NCBI GenBank assembly: GCA_014380815.1 | Contig: JACMJB010000139.1 | Coordinates: 1-36,007 of the forward strand | DNA from: Armatimonadota bacterium | GTDB lineage: Bacteria > Armatimonadota > Armatimonadia > Armatimonadales > Armatimonadaceae | DNA: 36,007 nt | Direction of reading: 5' to 3' | Shown: positions 1,523 through 36,007 of the stretch, piece after piece | Numbering within the stretch: position 1 is the first letter of the stretch | Layout of the letters: every line of letters starts with the position of its first letter | Translations under genes and position numbers: made by a program | Notes under the pieces: generated by a model | Database searches by the model: none | Seen by the model: only the letters and a program-made list of their open reading frames with translations | Told to the model about the DNA's origin: nothing

Positions 1523-2137
1523 TCAGCGGCTCAGCACCTTTCCCAGCAGCTCATAGTCGAAGACCGGGCCAAAATCGCGGGAGTCCAGGCTGTTGTAGGT
1601 GTTGTCCCCCATGACCATGAGCGATCCGATCGGCACGACCGCCCCGCCCCCGGTGTACTCCGGGAACCAGGAATCCGCGCGGACCCGACCACGCCCCGTT
1701 TCCAGATACCGGGGCCAGAGGGCATTCCCCTTCTCGTTTTGCACGAACACGACGCGCTTGACGATCTCCTCGCCCTTGTTGGCGCCATGTTTGAGCTTGA
1801 CGATCACGATATCGCCGACTTTGACCGGCGCGAACAGACGAAATGTCTTCAGCAGCACCAGGGAATCACCGGTGGTATAGGTCGGTTCCATGGAATGCCC
1901 CTGTACCTTTGCCATGCCGAAGTTCGGAAGGGCCAGAAGACACAATCCCAGAATGGGCAGGAGGACCCGTCGCTCCCGCTTGATTCGAGCGGCAAGGCTG
2001 CCCCGGCGCTCTTCAGCCGCCCGAACCGCAACGAGGCGGGATTCCAGCACAGGGTCAAGGGGCGCTGCGGCAGCGATGGGCAGGGAATCGGAGAGCGTCG
2101 TCGCTGCTGCCGCCCCGGTTGGCACTCGTTCATCCAT
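1523..2137 (-). CDS. lepB: Signal peptidase I
   Basis: Membrane-bound serine protease that removes signal peptides from exported proteins. The 204-residue protein has a 55-residue polar N-terminal tail, one transmembrane segment around residues 57-75, then GHSMEPT with nucleophile Ser82, the general-base lysine at Lys127 in EEIVKRVV, and the box D/E segment MGDNTYNSLDSRDFGPV (residues 176-192). All catalytic elements are present. A single N-terminal helix with a long Ala-rich cytoplasmic tail resembles Gram-positive and cyanobacterial forms rather than the two-helix E. coli enzyme. It lies between thrC and purC on the same strand; its stop overlaps the likely purC start. About 110 bases separate it from thrC, so it may have its own promoter. 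Confidence 0.95.
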   Translation of the reverse strand: MDERVPTGAAAATTLSDSLPIAAAAPLDPVLESRLVAVRAAEERRGSLAARIKRERRVLLPILGLCLLALPNFGMAKVQGHSMEPTYTTGDSLVLLKTFRLFAPVKVGDIVIVKLKHGANKGEEIVKRVVFVQNEKGNALWPRYLETGRGRVRADSWFPEYTGGGAVVPIGSLMVMGDNTYNSLDSRDFGPVFDYELLGKVLSR

Positions 2138-2247
2138 TGCGTGTTCGTTCCTGATTAAACCCGTGGGTTCACCAACATTTTTAGCGGTCGTATTGGTGCA
2201 AACGCGCCACAGACCAATCGGTTCCAGCCCTCAACGCTTCGAGGACT

Positions 2248-3330
2248 TTAGAAAAAACGGTCCAGCTGACGGAGGATCGCATCGCGCTGCGCGGCTACCT
2301 CTACGATACCCGATGCCACCGTTTTTATCGCACGGTCCGGGTCTTTCAGTCCATGTCCGGTGAGGGTCACCGTAACGGTCGCGGGTTCGTCGGTGGGAAG
2401 ATCTTTGAAGTAGCCGTTCTCGGCAAGCATCTTCAGACCGGCGACCGGTGCGGCGCAGGCAGGCTCCGCGAAGATCCCCTCATTTGCCGCAACCGCGGCA
2501 TAAGCCGCAACGATCTGTTCGTCGGTGACTTTGTGGATCAAGCCCCCGGACTGATCCCGGGCGGCGATGGCCCCCTTCCACGACGCCGGGTTCCCGATGC
2601 GGATAGCGGTCGCGATGGTGCAGGGTTCATGAACCCGGCTGCCGTCCACGAGCGGGGCCGCGCCGAATGCCTGAAAGCCGAGCATCTTTGGAGTGCGGGT
2701 CGCGCGGCCCGCCGCGTGATATTCCTGATAACCACGCCAGTAAGCGGTGATATTCCCGGCGTTACCCACCGGGATCGCGTGAAAGTGCGGGGCATCGCCG
2801 AGCGCGTCCACGATCTCGAAGGCGGCGGTCTTTTGTCCCTCGATCCGGACCGGATTCACAGAGTTGACCAGCGCGATCGGGTGAGTGGCGCAGATGTCGC
2901 GCACCAGATTCAGGGCATCATCGAAGTTGCCGTCAATGGCGAGCACCTGCGCCCCGTGGATCAATGCCTGGGAAAGCTTTCCCAGCGCGACCTCGCCTCT
3001 TGGCAGAAGCACCACCGAGGCGATCCCCGCGCGGGCGGCGTACGCGGACGCAGCAGCACTAGTGTTTCCGGTCGAGGCACACATCACGACCTTCGCGCCC
3101 GTCTCGACCGCCTTACTGACCGCCATCGTCATGCCCCGGTCCTTGAATGAGCCAGTCGGGTTCATTCCCTCGAACTTCAGGAAGACCCGTAGCTGAGGCG
3201 GTACACCGATCCACCGGGCAAGACGCGGGGCCTCGATCAGCGGTGTGCTTCCCTCAGCGAGCGTGATCACCGGCGTCGCATCGGTGACATCGGGCAGCAG
3301 CGGACGATAGCGTTCAATGATTCCAGACAT
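2248..3330 (-). CDS. thrC: Threonine synthase
   Basis: PLP-dependent enzyme converting O-phosphohomoserine to threonine, the last step of the pathway. The 360-residue protein has the short threonine-synthase form: TLAEGSTPLIEAPRLA at the N-terminus, FEGMNPTGSFKDRGM with the PLP Schiff-base lysine at Lys63, CASTGNTSAAASAYAARAG for phosphate binding, and IPVGNAGNITAYWRGY for the PLP phosphate cup. The C-terminus is normal (VTLTGHGLKDPDRAI). It sits in the accB-hom-flavin reductase-thrC run on the minus strand, 30 bases after the flavin-reductase gene, so both threonine-branch genes are together. No homoserine kinase gene is in the window. No strong Shine-Dalgarno is visible before the ATG, consistent with coupling to upstream translation. 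Confidence 0.95.
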   Translation of the reverse strand: MSGIIERYRPLLPDVTDATPVITLAEGSTPLIEAPRLARWIGVPPQLRVFLKFEGMNPTGSFKDRGMTMAVSKAVETGAKVVMCASTGNTSAAASAYAARAGIASVVLLPRGEVALGKLSQALIHGAQVLAIDGNFDDALNLVRDICATHPIALVNSVNPVRIEGQKTAAFEIVDALGDAPHFHAIPVGNAGNITAYWRGYQEYHAAGRATRTPKMLGFQAFGAAPLVDGSRVHEPCTIATAIRIGNPASWKGAIAARDQSGGLIHKVTDEQIVAAYAAVAANEGIFAEPACAAPVAGLKMLAENGYFKDLPTDEPATVTVTLTGHGLKDPDRAIKTVASGIVEVAAQRDAILRQLDRFF

Positions 3331-3360: not shown

Positions 3361-3954
3361 TTATCCCCACACCTTGGGCAGCGTGAACGGGTCGCGCAGG
3401 CTGGCATAGCGCAGCGGGCCGACCGATGCCAGCACATCCGCGCCGACCGTATCGAACCCTTCGGAGATAAACGCCCCGACGACCCGCGCCACGACCAGGC
3501 GGCAGCGCGACGGCGGCAGGTCCACGATGCTTTCCACGACACAGCCCAGCGCGGCGGGCGATTCCGCGATCCGCGGGACACTAACCCCGTCTATTGGGGC
3601 GGCGTTCAAACCTAGCCGCTGGAAATCATCGGTTCCGCGCCCATACTCCCTTGCAGACTCGTTCATCGCTTCTGCGAGGGTTCTCGTGACAATATTCAGC
3701 ACGAACTCTCCGGTCGCTTCGATATTGGCGAGGGTGTCTTTTGGTTCGCTCTCACGCTCCGAGAAGGCCACCCCAACCAGCGGCGGGCTGTTGGCCAGGC
3801 CGGTGTACGAGTTGAACGGCGCGATATTCACGCCCTGCTCGGTGCCCTCTCCCACTGCCACGCCGCGCGAGGTGATCCAGGCCAGCGGACGGGGGGCGAC
3901 CACGGAGGCGAGGATCGCGCTGCGCTGCTCGAAGGGCAGTTCGTCGAAAATCAT
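3361..3954 (-). CDS. Flavin reductase-like FMN-binding domain protein
   Basis: A 197-residue protein of the flavin-reductase-like, FMN-binding split-barrel family. Diagnostic parts are ILASVVAPRPLAWITSRG near the N-terminus, NIAPFNSYTGLANSPPLVGVAFS (flavin-contact loop), KDTLANIEATGEFVLNIV, and the dimer-type C-terminal half ALGCVVESIVDLP ... LVVARVVGAFI. Such proteins reduce or bind FMN for partner oxygenases or act as stand-alone reductases; the substrate cannot be told from sequence. I chose the ATG at 3954 because it precedes MIFDELPFEQR, the usual family start, has a purine-rich GGGGGGAG upstream and avoids overlap with hom; a start at 4026 would overlap hom and encode unrelated residues. 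It lies between hom and thrC, an unusual position for this family. Confidence 0.88.
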   Translation of the reverse strand: MIFDELPFEQRSAILASVVAPRPLAWITSRGVAVGEGTEQGVNIAPFNSYTGLANSPPLVGVAFSERESEPKDTLANIEATGEFVLNIVTRTLAEAMNESAREYGRGTDDFQRLGLNAAPIDGVSVPRIAESPAALGCVVESIVDLPPSRCRLVVARVVGAFISEGFDTVGADVLASVGPLRYASLRDPFTLPKVWG

Positions 3955-3979
3955 GCGCCGCTCCCCCCGCGGAGACCGC

Positions 3980-5269
3980 TCATTCCGCCACCCGGATACA
4001 GTTGCTAACCGCCCGGACGGCGTCAAGTTTGGTGATCGTGGCGAGTGCGGCGCGCAGGTGCTTTTCCCGTACCAGGTGCGTCACCCAGACGATTTCGGCT
4101 TCCGCGGAGGGGAGGAGGTGCTGAATAACAGACTCGATGGAGACGTCATTATCGCCGAAAATGCTGGCGATCGAAGCCAATACCTTTGGCCGGTCGTCCA
4201 CCCGCACACGGATATAGTAACGTGATTCCAAAACGTCCACGGACAGCATCCGCTTCTCCTCGAAGCAGGTGCAGCCGATGCGCCCGGTGGAAGCCGCGAG
4301 GATATTGCGCCCCGCCGCGACCATATCCCCCACCACGGCGCTCCCCGTCGGCAGGCTGCCCGCACCACGCCCGTAGAACATCACGTCGCCCACTGCATCG
4401 CCGCGCACCAGAACCGCGTTGAAGACATCGTCCACGGTCGCGAGCGGGTGCTTGAGCGGCAGCAGTGCGGGGTGGACGCGCACCTGCATGGATTTGCCGT
4501 TCGCGGACTGCTCGGCGACCGCGACCAGTTTGATCCGGTAGCCAAGTTCCCGCGCCACGATGATATCGCGCGCTTCGATGCCGCGAATCCCCTCGGCGGA
4601 GATGTCTTCCACGTGGACGCGCGAGTTGAAGGCGATAGAGGCAAGAATCGCTATTTTGTACTGGGCATCGAAGCCGTCCACATCGCTGGTGGGGTCCGAT
4701 TCCGCGTAGCCGTGCGCCTGCGCTTCGGCAAGAACATCAGCGAAGGCCGCGCCCTCCTCGGTCATTTTGGTCAGGATGTAATTGGTCGTACCATTGACGA
4801 TCCCCATCACTTCGCGGATCTGGTTTCCGGTCAGCGATTCCTTCATCGCAGCGACGATCGGAATCCCGCCCGCGACACTTCCTTCCAGGAAGAAATCTTT
4901 CTTGGCCGCGCCCGCCGCTTCCATCAGGTCATGACCGGCCTTCGCCATCATCTCCTTGTTAGCGGTAATGATGTTCTTGCCGCTTTCGATAGCCCGCATC
5001 ACATACTCGTGGGCGGGTTCCACGCCGCCGATCAGTTCGGCGAGGATCTCGATCTCCGGGTCGTTGATGACCTCGTAAGGATCGTCGGTGAGCAAGGCGC
5101 GGTCTACGGAAACCGCGCGGGGCTTGTCAAGGCTGCGCACGGCGATCTTCTTGACAACCAGCTTTGCTCCGACGCGCTGCGCGATGGCGTCCGCGTTCTC
5201 CTGAAGGATACGCACGGCCCCCGACCCGACGACCCCCAGTCCCAGCACCCCGATTTTAATCTCGCGCAT
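3980..5269 (-). CDS. hom: Homoserine dehydrogenase with C-terminal ACT domain
   Basis: Reduces aspartate semialdehyde to homoserine, committing carbon to threonine and methionine. The 429-residue protein has an N-terminal nucleotide-binding fold (KIGVLGLGVVGSGAV, residues 5-19), ITANKEMMAKAG with Lys105, the catalytic domain EGSVAGGIPIVAAMKESL (129-146), GIVNGTTNYILTKM, and the substrate-site block SDPTSDVDGFDAQYKIAI containing the family catalytic lysine at Lys205. Residues from about 350 form an ACT domain (YYIRVRVDDRPKVLASIASIF), the usual site of threonine feedback inhibition. The length is typical of the ACT-bearing monofunctional enzyme. It begins two bases after the accB stop, so the two genes are very likely one transcript, and is followed by the flavin-reductase gene and thrC. 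Confidence 0.96.
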   Translation of the reverse strand: MREIKIGVLGLGVVGSGAVRILQENADAIAQRVGAKLVVKKIAVRSLDKPRAVSVDRALLTDDPYEVINDPEIEILAELIGGVEPAHEYVMRAIESGKNIITANKEMMAKAGHDLMEAAGAAKKDFFLEGSVAGGIPIVAAMKESLTGNQIREVMGIVNGTTNYILTKMTEEGAAFADVLAEAQAHGYAESDPTSDVDGFDAQYKIAILASIAFNSRVHVEDISAEGIRGIEARDIIVARELGYRIKLVAVAEQSANGKSMQVRVHPALLPLKHPLATVDDVFNAVLVRGDAVGDVMFYGRGAGSLPTGSAVVGDMVAAGRNILAASTGRIGCTCFEEKRMLSVDVLESRYYIRVRVDDRPKVLASIASIFGDNDVSIESVIQHLLPSAEAEIVWVTHLVREKHLRAALATITKLDAVRAVSNCIRVAE

Positions 5270-33928: not shown

Positions 33929-34432
33929 CTAAACACTGCGGATGGCCTTCAGAACAGATGTCATTTTATTCTGCTCTGCGTATTTTATAGGAGTCATCCC
34001 GTCATCGTGCTCTACATAAACATCTGCGCCACGACGAATCAGCAACAGACTCGCTCTAGTGTGTTTTTTCGCAAGAGCTTCTATCAAAGGAGTGCCACCG
34101 ATGACTGTAGCAGCGTCGATTTGCGCCCCGTTATCAAGCAACAGCTGCATGAGTTTCAGATTTCCGTGTGAGGCAGCAAGTAGAAGAGGGCTGACACCGA
34201 CAAAATTTTGAATGTTAACATCGGCGCCCAGGTTTATAAGTAAGTCTGCCATTTCATATCGGTTCATTCGGCAGGACAAGAGTAGACAATCACCGAAGAT
34301 CTTCGACCACTTGTCTGAAGTATCCAATTTGGATCCTCCAAAATGCTTTCCAAATATCGCAACCACCTCTAAGTAATTTAGCTTGACAGCGGTGATGCAA
34401 GCTAAAGTGGCCGCCTCCGGCGTCACACTCAC
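33929..34432 (-). CDS. Ankyrin-repeat protein
   Basis: A protein of about 167 residues with four ankyrin repeats: an opening unit (TPEAATLACITAVKLNYLEVVAIF), MADLLINLGADVNIQNFVGVSPLLLAASHGN, LKLMQLLLDNGAQIDAATVIGGTPLIEALAKKH, and ASLLLIRRGADVYVEHDDGMTPIKYAEQNK, with a capping helix ending in KAIRSV. Codons are more A/T-rich than in the rest of the window. The start is uncertain: the frame stays open to 34603, but that extension is the antisense of a conserved domain on the other strand, so I use a GTG at 34432. Ankyrin proteins of this size are common as effectors, immunity proteins and adaptors; none of these is shown. Confidence 0.75.
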   Translation of the reverse strand: MSVTPEAATLACITAVKLNYLEVVAIFGKHFGGSKLDTSDKWSKIFGDCLLLSCRMNRYEMADLLINLGADVNIQNFVGVSPLLLAASHGNLKLMQLLLDNGAQIDAATVIGGTPLIEALAKKHTRASLLLIRRGADVYVEHDDGMTPIKYAEQNKMTSVLKAIRSV

Positions 34433-34442
34433 CCTGACGACA

Positions 34443-34739
34443 ATGGGGAAAACAGCGGCACCCGTTAAATCTCCGCCTATTTCCCAGCGCCAATTGCTTG
34501 CCGTCTGGCAGAAACATCTTTCCGTACCACAGGGACGTATCCTCGAATACCTTTGGGAGCGGCGAGGCATATCCGTCTCTCGAAGGGAGATAGCCGGTGC
34601 CATTGAGGTGAGCGAATCTTCTAGCGGCTTTCGGAGTAATTTGACGGCCCTGCGGACGCTTGGGCTGATCCACTATCCCGATAGCCAGACAGCCGCCGCC
34701 ACAGAGCTGATCCTGGTGCCGGGTCTTCTGATCGAATAG
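34443..34739 (+). pseudogene. C-terminal winged-helix fragment of a larger protein
   Basis: A 98-codon frame encoding PPISQRQLLAVWQKHL, PQGRILEYLWERRGISVSRREIAGAIE, SSGFRSNLTALRTLGLIHYP. This resembles a winged-helix module I know from the C-terminus of large P-loop ATPases on mobile elements, with the order Q-RIL-L, SRxExA, SxGFxxxLxxLRTLGLIxYP. No ATPase part is present; an in-frame stop at 34374 and the ankyrin gene on the other strand cut it off. The ATG at 34443 lacks a ribosome binding site. I read it as the remnant of an element gene. It could still be a short DNA-binding protein if transcribed. Confidence 0.5.
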
Positions 34740-34864
34740 TGGAGTTCTTGTGAAATTGGTCAGATCACCGAGTAACGTGTGCCTAGTCTCCGTCGCTGGC
34801 CTCAATGGTTTCGAGCACAAATTTGCATCGTGTTCTATGGTCTGATGGCCCTTCAAAAAGATGG

Positions 34865-35479
34865 CTATTCACTGCTCCTCATCATGTTGCGCTCCAATTC
34901 TTCGGCGGTTTCTGGACCGATTACAGGTTGAGCCTGTATCTGCTTGATTAGTTCACGATGTACTTTGTCAGAATTGGGTCCAGGTGTAGATCCTACCGCA
35001 CCTAATAATCCTGCCTGCTCTTCGTCTGTGAGATGAGAAAAATCGTTAACAACGGTCTCCAGCAAATGCGGAAACTTTTCGTTTTTCGCTTCTGTCGCTA
35101 TCAAAAGTAAGCAGGCGCGCTGTTCACCTCGCTTATCCACAATGGGAGCTATCTCCTCCGCGAGCAAATCTGGGGCGTAATGTGCCCACTCCTGAAGCAC
35201 GTCTCCAACTCGAAAAAGCCACTGCTCTTCATCCCAGCCCCATTCGTAATTACTAAAAGGAAAAGCTGCGTTGTATTCTTCCGGTGTCGGATAGTTCAGC
35301 AGTAGATCGACGGCGACTGGCAGCCACTCTTTGGGGGCATTTTCAAGTACATCGGCGCGGTGCTTGATAAGGCGATCCCATCTGTCAGAAAAAGAACCAG
35401 TAGACATTGGTCCAACATCGCAGTTATTAAGTTCAACGATGAGTTTAATCATTTCAATTCGGGTCATAGTTGTGTCCAT
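34865..35479 (-). CDS. Uncharacterised helical protein, paralogue of the gene at the window end
   Basis: A 204-residue acidic soluble protein. Predicted mainly helical; notable segments are WLPVAVDLLLNYPTPEEYNAAFPFS, YEWGWDEEQWLFRVGDVLQEWAHYAPDLLAEEI, ACLLLIATEAKNEKFPHLLETVVNDFSHLTDEEQAGLLGAV, and the tail AQPVIGPETAEELERNMM. No known domain recognised; the helix-loop spacing recalls HEAT-like or immunity-type proteins. The ATG at 35479 is preferred because AGGTG lies five bases before it; GTG 35485 and ATG 35467 are alternatives. The end of the window carries a related tail (STPG ... QP-x-IGPETAE-x-LER), so this is a local gene family. Base composition is low in G+C compared with the rest of the window. 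Confidence 0.72.
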   Translation of the reverse strand: MDTTMTRIEMIKLIVELNNCDVGPMSTGSFSDRWDRLIKHRADVLENAPKEWLPVAVDLLLNYPTPEEYNAAFPFSNYEWGWDEEQWLFRVGDVLQEWAHYAPDLLAEEIAPIVDKRGEQRACLLLIATEAKNEKFPHLLETVVNDFSHLTDEEQAGLLGAVGSTPGPNSDKVHRELIKQIQAQPVIGPETAEELERNMMRSSE

Positions 35480-35563
35480 ATGCACCTACTTTTGCTGTAT
35501 AAAATTATTATAGCAATTTTTGCTTATACACGTTCGCCGGTCCAGGTTGTCGTTGACCCATGA

Positions 35564-35603
35564 AAGGTCTGCCACTCTGATGCGTTTCCGAGTGGCAGAC
35601 CTT
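35564..35603. terminator. Perfect 14-bp-stem terminator after the small HTH gene
   Basis: AAGGTCTGCCACTC (35564-35577) and GAGTGGCAGACCTT (35590-35603) pair perfectly around a 12-base loop. It begins one base after the minus-strand stop of the HTH gene. Arms end in AA/TT on both sides, so it may act on either strand. Confidence 0.85.
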
Positions 35604-35604
35604 A

Positions 35605-35766
35605 TTAAGACTCTCTGGCAGTTGGGTTCTCTAGTTTCGGCTGGGTATAGCGATAGAACGTAGTTCGCGCAATTCCCAGCGTCTTGTAGATGTATTGGAT
35701 GCTCTGGGTAGAATCGTCACGCAGTGCCTGTGCTGCCTGTGCTAGACCTTCCCACATTACTTCCAT
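35605..35766 (-). CDS. Small HTH protein resembling a serine-recombinase DNA-binding tail
   Basis: A 53-residue frame: MEVMWEGLAQAAQALRDDSTQSIQYIYKTLGIARTTFYRY, then a short tail QPKLENPTARES. The core SIQ-IYKTLGIARTTFYRY is the helix-turn-helix found at the C-terminus of resolvases and invertases (Hin type). The catalytic recombinase domain is absent. The start has GAGG eight to nine bases upstream and lies 11 bases after the stop of the upstream gene, so it is probably translated in the same transcript, and a strong terminator follows at once. It is either a domesticated small DNA-binding protein or the tail of a broken recombinase. The tidy start and terminator favour an expressed gene. 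Confidence 0.55.
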   Translation of the reverse strand: MEVMWEGLAQAAQALRDDSTQSIQYIYKTLGIARTTFYRYTQPKLENPTARES

Positions 35767-35777
35767 CAGTATCGTCC

Positions 35778-36007
35778 TCACAAGGCTTTATCATACTCGG
35801 TGTTGTGTCGCTCCAGCGTCTCAGCGGTTTCCGGTCCTATCGTCGGCTGAGCGAGAATCTTTTGTTTCAATTCCTCTAACAGACGTTCCGCCTCCGCACC
35901 GGGCGTAGAATCCACTGCATCGAATAGGGTAGCTATATCTTCATCGTCCATACTGTCAAAAGCCGCGACACCGGCTTTGACGATGGGAAGGAAACTGACA
36001 TGTTCGG
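35778..36007 (-). CDS. C-terminal part of a second member of the unknown local family
   Basis: The frame runs off the right end of the window; 76 codons including the stop are visible. They read EHVSFLPIVKAGVAAFDSMDD, then EDIATLFDAVDSTPGAEAE, LLEELKQKILAQPTIGPETA and ETLERHNTEYDKAL. Aligned with the tail of the gene at 34865-35479, the shared pattern is L-x-AV-x-STPG, a helix with EL-x-x-x-I-x-AQP, then IGPETAE-x-LER. Its stop is 11 bases before the HTH gene, so the two are likely cotranscribed. No known domain; start and N-terminus are outside the window. Confidence 0.75.
   Translation of the reverse strand, partial: EHVSFLPIVKAGVAAFDSMDDEDIATLFDAVDSTPGAEAERLLEELKQKILAQPTIGPETAETLERHNTEYDKAL

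Follow-up and report, generated by a model that had tools for sequence, protein, structure and literature searches.

Gene content and composition of the locus

The window, that is, the whole stretch of DNA analysed here, is the complete contig G000:C230 (36,007 bases) of a draft genome of 4.22 Mb in 495 contigs. Its right-hand end carries on the minus strand, in this order, P0002 (cut at its 5' end), a 53-aa helix-turn-helix (HTH) frame, a strong hairpin and P0001, followed by a plus-strand ORF and an ankyrin gene (Table 1). GC content is 0.493 at positions 33929-36007 versus 0.63 at positions 1-33500, bearing out a preliminary description of this DNA, which had called the region A/T-richer than the chromosome. 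GC3 is about 0.45-0.52 for the genes in the low-GC end, with 0.61 for the plus-strand ORF, as compared with about 0.74-0.79 in most of the housekeeping genes tested. The low-GC end is probably a small, horizontally acquired gene island, visible over the last 2.1 kb of the window; the remainder is ordinary chromosome (63% GC). Searches for RNA families and tRNAs in the window gave none. Extension of the contig past position 36007, proposed in the preliminary description, failed because no contig in the assembly overlaps its end; as the window is the whole contig and has no such overlap, P0002 is truncated by the assembly.

Table 1. Features of the low-GC end of the window, in coordinates of the window.
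Feature	Position	Strand	Basis
Predicted 132-aa ankyrin-repeat protein	33929..34327	-	Ank_2, E 1.4e-20
Winged-helix-like ORF	34383..34739	+	LexA_DNA_bind, E 0.0017 (below cut-off), C-terminal half
P0001, predicted all-helical HEAT/ARM-like solenoid protein	34865..35485	-	206 aa from GTG; AF2 and Foldseek
Strong hairpin between HTH and P0001, possible terminator	35564..35603		17-nt inverted repeat
Putative solo C-terminal HTH domain, Tn3-type serine resolvase	35605..35766	-	Pfam HTH_7; resolvase tail in G007
P0002, C-terminal 75 aa of a predicted HEAT-like solenoid paralogue	35778..36005	-	46% identity to P0001; profile A3

P0001 and P0002 as diverged paralogues

The P0002 frame is open to the contig end and its 5' part is missing. 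A search of the genome aligned it with P0001 at 46% identity across 61-63 residues (E 4e-10), and the alignment (29/63 identical) had a local score of 130, against a maximum of 52 among 1000 shuffles, so the C-terminal pattern previously noticed in these two minus-strand genes is real. P0002 also matched the family profile A3 (E 1.9e-19). The strings STPG and AQP-x-IGPETAE-x-LER are exact in this pair but not kept by more distant relatives. Identity at first, second and third codon positions was 59, 70 and 27%, respectively, with pN 0.36 and pS saturated; the saturated third positions indicate that P0001 and P0002 are coding copies and not a chance similarity and, judged by this codon pattern, the duplication is old and both copies have been selected as protein.

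For P0001, an alternative ATG at position 35479 has a better upstream AGTAGGTG than the GTG start, and is likely the actual start. Comparisons of P0001 with Pfam, PHROGs, NCBIfam and PADLOC gave no match. The earlier suggestion of divergent paralogues from an unrecognised family is thus supported by their 46% identity and by the lack of any curated match.

P0001 is predicted to be an alpha-solenoid

We modelled P0001 with AlphaFold2 (AF2) from an alignment of six sequences, comprising P0001 and its relatives. The model was all-helical, with 11-12 helices (pLDDT 86, pTM 0.79), so that the structure prediction advised in the preliminary description yielded a confident all-helical solenoid. Prediction from the single P0001 sequence was poor (pLDDT 54), and we therefore used the alignment-based model alone. 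In Foldseek searches the best PDB match was a designed armadillo repeat (E 2.9e-3, prob 1.00), and the best matches included designed armadillo repeats, HEAT-type and alphaRep proteins, with TM only about 0.45-0.5; given this best E value and a TM of ~0.45, the fold class is clear and no specific structural relative stands out. Profile searches matched a VPS34 helical region (E 0.005), and the family profile also matched a canonical HEAT-repeat protein from another phylum (E 4e-5). The curated Pfam HEAT cut-off was not reached by P0001 or by a relative that scored against HEAT_2 (E 0.11), and no significant match to the P0001 model was found in a viral structure library. Together, model and profile matches support well the assignment of P0001 as a HEAT/ARM-like alpha-solenoid of an uncurated family, with predicted stacked antiparallel helix pairs.

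Distribution of the family

Family profile searches found members in 4 of 291 Armatimonadota genomes, with a different context in each. Counting paralogues in this genome, as had been advised, added a third copy (G000:C322, L005; 8767-9411, minus strand), which stands by itself, with miaB on one side and a pyridoxamine-oxidase-like gene on the other, and has 56% GC, versus 62% for its contig. This copy aligns along its length, as do the relatives in G017, G160 and G018, and none of them keeps the tail motif. The family had no matches in plasmid, phage and viral-contig collections; likewise, the genome_contigs collection gave no close relative of P0001, and there the G017 relative matched nothing but its own contig. 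The family has no stretch conserved well enough for scanning such collections with its profile. An early weak match in G016:C27 lay in an unrelated long frame and vanished under profile search.

A resolvase-type HTH between the paralogues

The 53-aa HTH frame is intact and has GAGG upstream; if begun at the GTG at 35781, it would overlap the P0002 stop. It matched the resolvase helix-turn-helix of Pfam (HTH_7) at E 1.5e-4, just short of the curated cut-off, and it also matched the C-terminal ends of other resolvases, full-length ones in G004, G005, G013 and G025 and a frameshifted one in G007. The best pair was with the resolvase tail of G007, a genome of the same family, with 22 of 36 residues identical (61%), starting from the linker before the HTH; in both, the region of the recognition helix ends in TFY(RYT). 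Unlike Tn3-type serine resolvases, which have an N-terminal catalytic domain, the frame has none; no serine-recombinase catalytic domain was found in the window, where tblastn with the relatives' resolvases recovered the HTH part alone. At E 0.01, the assembly gave no further copy of this HTH.

From these similarities it is well supported that the frame encodes, on its own, the C-terminal DNA-binding domain of a resolvase of the Tn3 serine type, which is either a relic or has been retained for binding DNA. A retained role would be compatible with the frame being intact, with its ribosome-binding site and with the overlap that it may have with the P0002 stop. The small HTH gene with its own ribosome binding site had thus been correctly recognised, but it belongs to this resolvase type and not to a new family.

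Other resolvase sequences were observed among the relatives. In G007:C441 (L030; 1034-1599, plus strand), a serine resolvase is frameshifted across two reading frames at the contig end, and G017:C141 (L037; 163-441, plus strand) contains a second solo resolvase-type HTH frame, of 92 aa, with no catalytic part upstream.

Hairpin and neighbouring genes

The hairpin between the HTH frame and P0001 is very strong (-31 kcal/mol, z -5.5, 17-nt arms), but it is hardly the perfect terminator once proposed: its tail is just TTT-CATGG, a weak U-tract, and a terminator scan did not call it.

The plus-strand ORF shares 33% identity with the C-terminus of a frame of 337 aa in G060, and may once have been the C-terminal domain of a longer protein such as that one before becoming detached. 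For the ankyrin gene, the TTG at 34327, after GGAGG, is the probable start; extending the frame to 34603 makes it overlap the plus-strand ORF. The ankyrin gene shares no transcription unit with P0001 and does not directly adjoin it, contrary to the preliminary description, as 538 bp containing the opposite-strand ORF separate it from P0001. Ankyrin relatives occur in 104 of 151 genomes, so the presence of this gene tells little as a marker. PADLOC gave it generic ankyrin matches only, to ankyrin-bearing models, and no match for P0001, P0002, P0003 or P0005.

Context of the relatives

In a same-order relative (G017:C205, L012; JAFAZD010000153.1, an Armatimonadetes MAG), the family gene lies at 4637-5209, and behind it on that strand come a DUF4926-like gene (E 0.0014, below cut-off) and a ComJ/Nin-like gene (3653-4135, minus strand). 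The latter matched the DNA-entry nuclease inhibitor 4mqd, which we take to be ComJ/Nin of B. subtilis, in phmmer (E 4.5e-5), suggesting a divergent ComJ/Nin-like nuclease inhibitor; the Pfam ComJ model gave no score on this gene, and the call comes from that single phmmer match.

No toxin gene was found beside family members in the flanks from G000, G017, G018 and G160, which are short contigs or contig ends except for C322, and the genome contains no RHS repeats or RHS toxins. The search for an adjacent toxin or recombinase called for earlier therefore returned the resolvase HTH remnant between the paralogues, and no toxin.

Interpretation of the locus

Imm-HEAT, Imm-Ank and Imm-ComJ are listed as immunity families, and polyimmunity loci consist of short co-oriented genes, some of them next to recombinases (PMC3482391). 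Recombinase-associated arrays of diverged orphan immunity genes have been described as Bacteroidales rAID (PMC12247911), and the immunity protein Tdi5a, with a HEAT-like all-helical fold, binds a nuclease toxin (PMC13392607).

We tentatively prefer, at a little under an even chance, to read the low-GC end as one piece of an orphan (poly)immunity array whose immunity proteins are HEAT-like. P0001 and P0002 would most likely bind and block toxins, each acting on one delivered by, or common to, competing bacteria, and the diverged copies would have been retained because they recognise different toxin variants. The HTH, a resolvase leftover by its similarity, would be a sign of past mobile-element activity in the array, and the ankyrin gene might perhaps encode a further interaction protein of immunity type in the island. 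In favour of immunity are the G017 trio, with its ComJ/Nin-like and DUF4926-like genes, the HEAT-like fold, the sporadic spread of the family, the low GC and GC3, and the old, diverged tandem copies selected as protein. The same reading is weakened by the lack of a toxin beside any member and of RHS repeats in the genome, by the lone C322 paralogue among housekeeping genes, by the opposite-strand ORF before the ankyrin gene, by the single match behind the ComJ-like call, by the many roles of HEAT solenoids and by the 2.1 kb in view. The immunity-gene array of the preliminary description is thus favoured by the G017 neighbourhood and the fold, but lacks a toxin adjacent to it or known in the genome.

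The proteins could instead be ordinary accessory HEAT-like adaptors with a housekeeping or regulatory binding role and no toxin link, their tandem arrangement reflecting plain old duplication. This explanation would fit the general nature of HEAT/ARM solenoids as binding scaffolds, the solitary C322 paralogue next to miaB and the lack of any toxin near family members; we nevertheless consider it rather unlikely, as the family occurs in so few genomes of the phylum and in no fixed position, the locus has low GC and the G017 neighbours are immunity-like. Improbable to a greater degree is that the end is functionless debris of mobile elements, with a solo resolvase HTH, a solo winged-helix and a paralogue remaining at a hot spot for insertions. 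A resolvase without its catalytic domain, a winged-helix ORF matching the C-terminus of a longer frame and the low GC would fit such debris, but P0001 is open over its full length and has a ribosome-binding site, the frame of the HTH is unbroken and the codon pattern of P0001 and P0002 indicates purifying selection at some stage.

An anti-phage or toxin-antitoxin accessory island appears very unlikely, even with the low GC, small genes, recombinase relic and an ankyrin gene similar to PADLOC ankyrin-bearing models in its favour, because PADLOC was otherwise silent, no effector gene is in view and the family has no phage, plasmid or viral relatives; the anti-phage island proposed earlier is accordingly not upheld. 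We would give an equally slight chance to a bolder form of the immunity reading, in which Armatimonadota have their own recombinase-associated interbacterial defence arrays, with a new HEAT-like immunity family and the resolvase HTH kept as a regulator or docking factor.

Comparison with known immunity loci

Like Imm-HEAT and other repeat-type immunity proteins (PMC3482391) and Tdi5a (PMC13392607), P0001 is a small, predicted all-helical HEAT-like solenoid, the likeness to Tdi5a being one of fold class as described and not of directly compared structures, and a relative of P0001 is co-oriented with another immunity-type gene. Unlike those proteins, the family has no identified cognate toxin and P0001 no detectable Pfam HEAT match. 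With polyimmunity loci (PMC3482391) and rAID arrays (PMC12247911) the locus shares short co-oriented genes, low GC, diverged paralogues and a recombinase association. It differs from both in having two array genes in view and an opposite-strand ORF before the ankyrin gene, and from the Bacteroidales rAID arrays in its phylum and in showing, within view, a solo serine-resolvase HTH relic where those have a tyrosine recombinase. P0002, the HTH and P0001 are co-oriented in an array that breaks off where the contig does; the polyimmunity layout is better matched by the G017 trio.

We conclude that the P0001/P0002 family is real, new and uncurated, and tentatively, as the likeliest reading, that it belongs to an already known type of locus, orphan immunity arrays. 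To call it an undescribed system, as before, was too strong, since polyimmunity loci, as well as immunity proteins of the HEAT, ankyrin and ComJ types, are known (PMC3482391). If correct, the immunity reading would add an undescribed family of immunity proteins, extend the range of (poly)immunity-type islands to the little-studied phylum Armatimonadota, and point to not-yet-seen toxins acting on its members; the one open-access paper found with both 'Armatimonad' and 'polymorphic toxin' in it mentions the phylum a single time.

We also observed a tandem array in the relative G018 (C99, L019; 299-4261, plus strand), made of about six short, co-oriented, paralogous frames, several of which start like MEQQWPPAP and have hydrophobic stretches. 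None of its genes matched a curated family. In the frame at 2135-3214, the solenoid domain is at the C-terminus, fused behind another domain, and the array also resembles a diversifying array.
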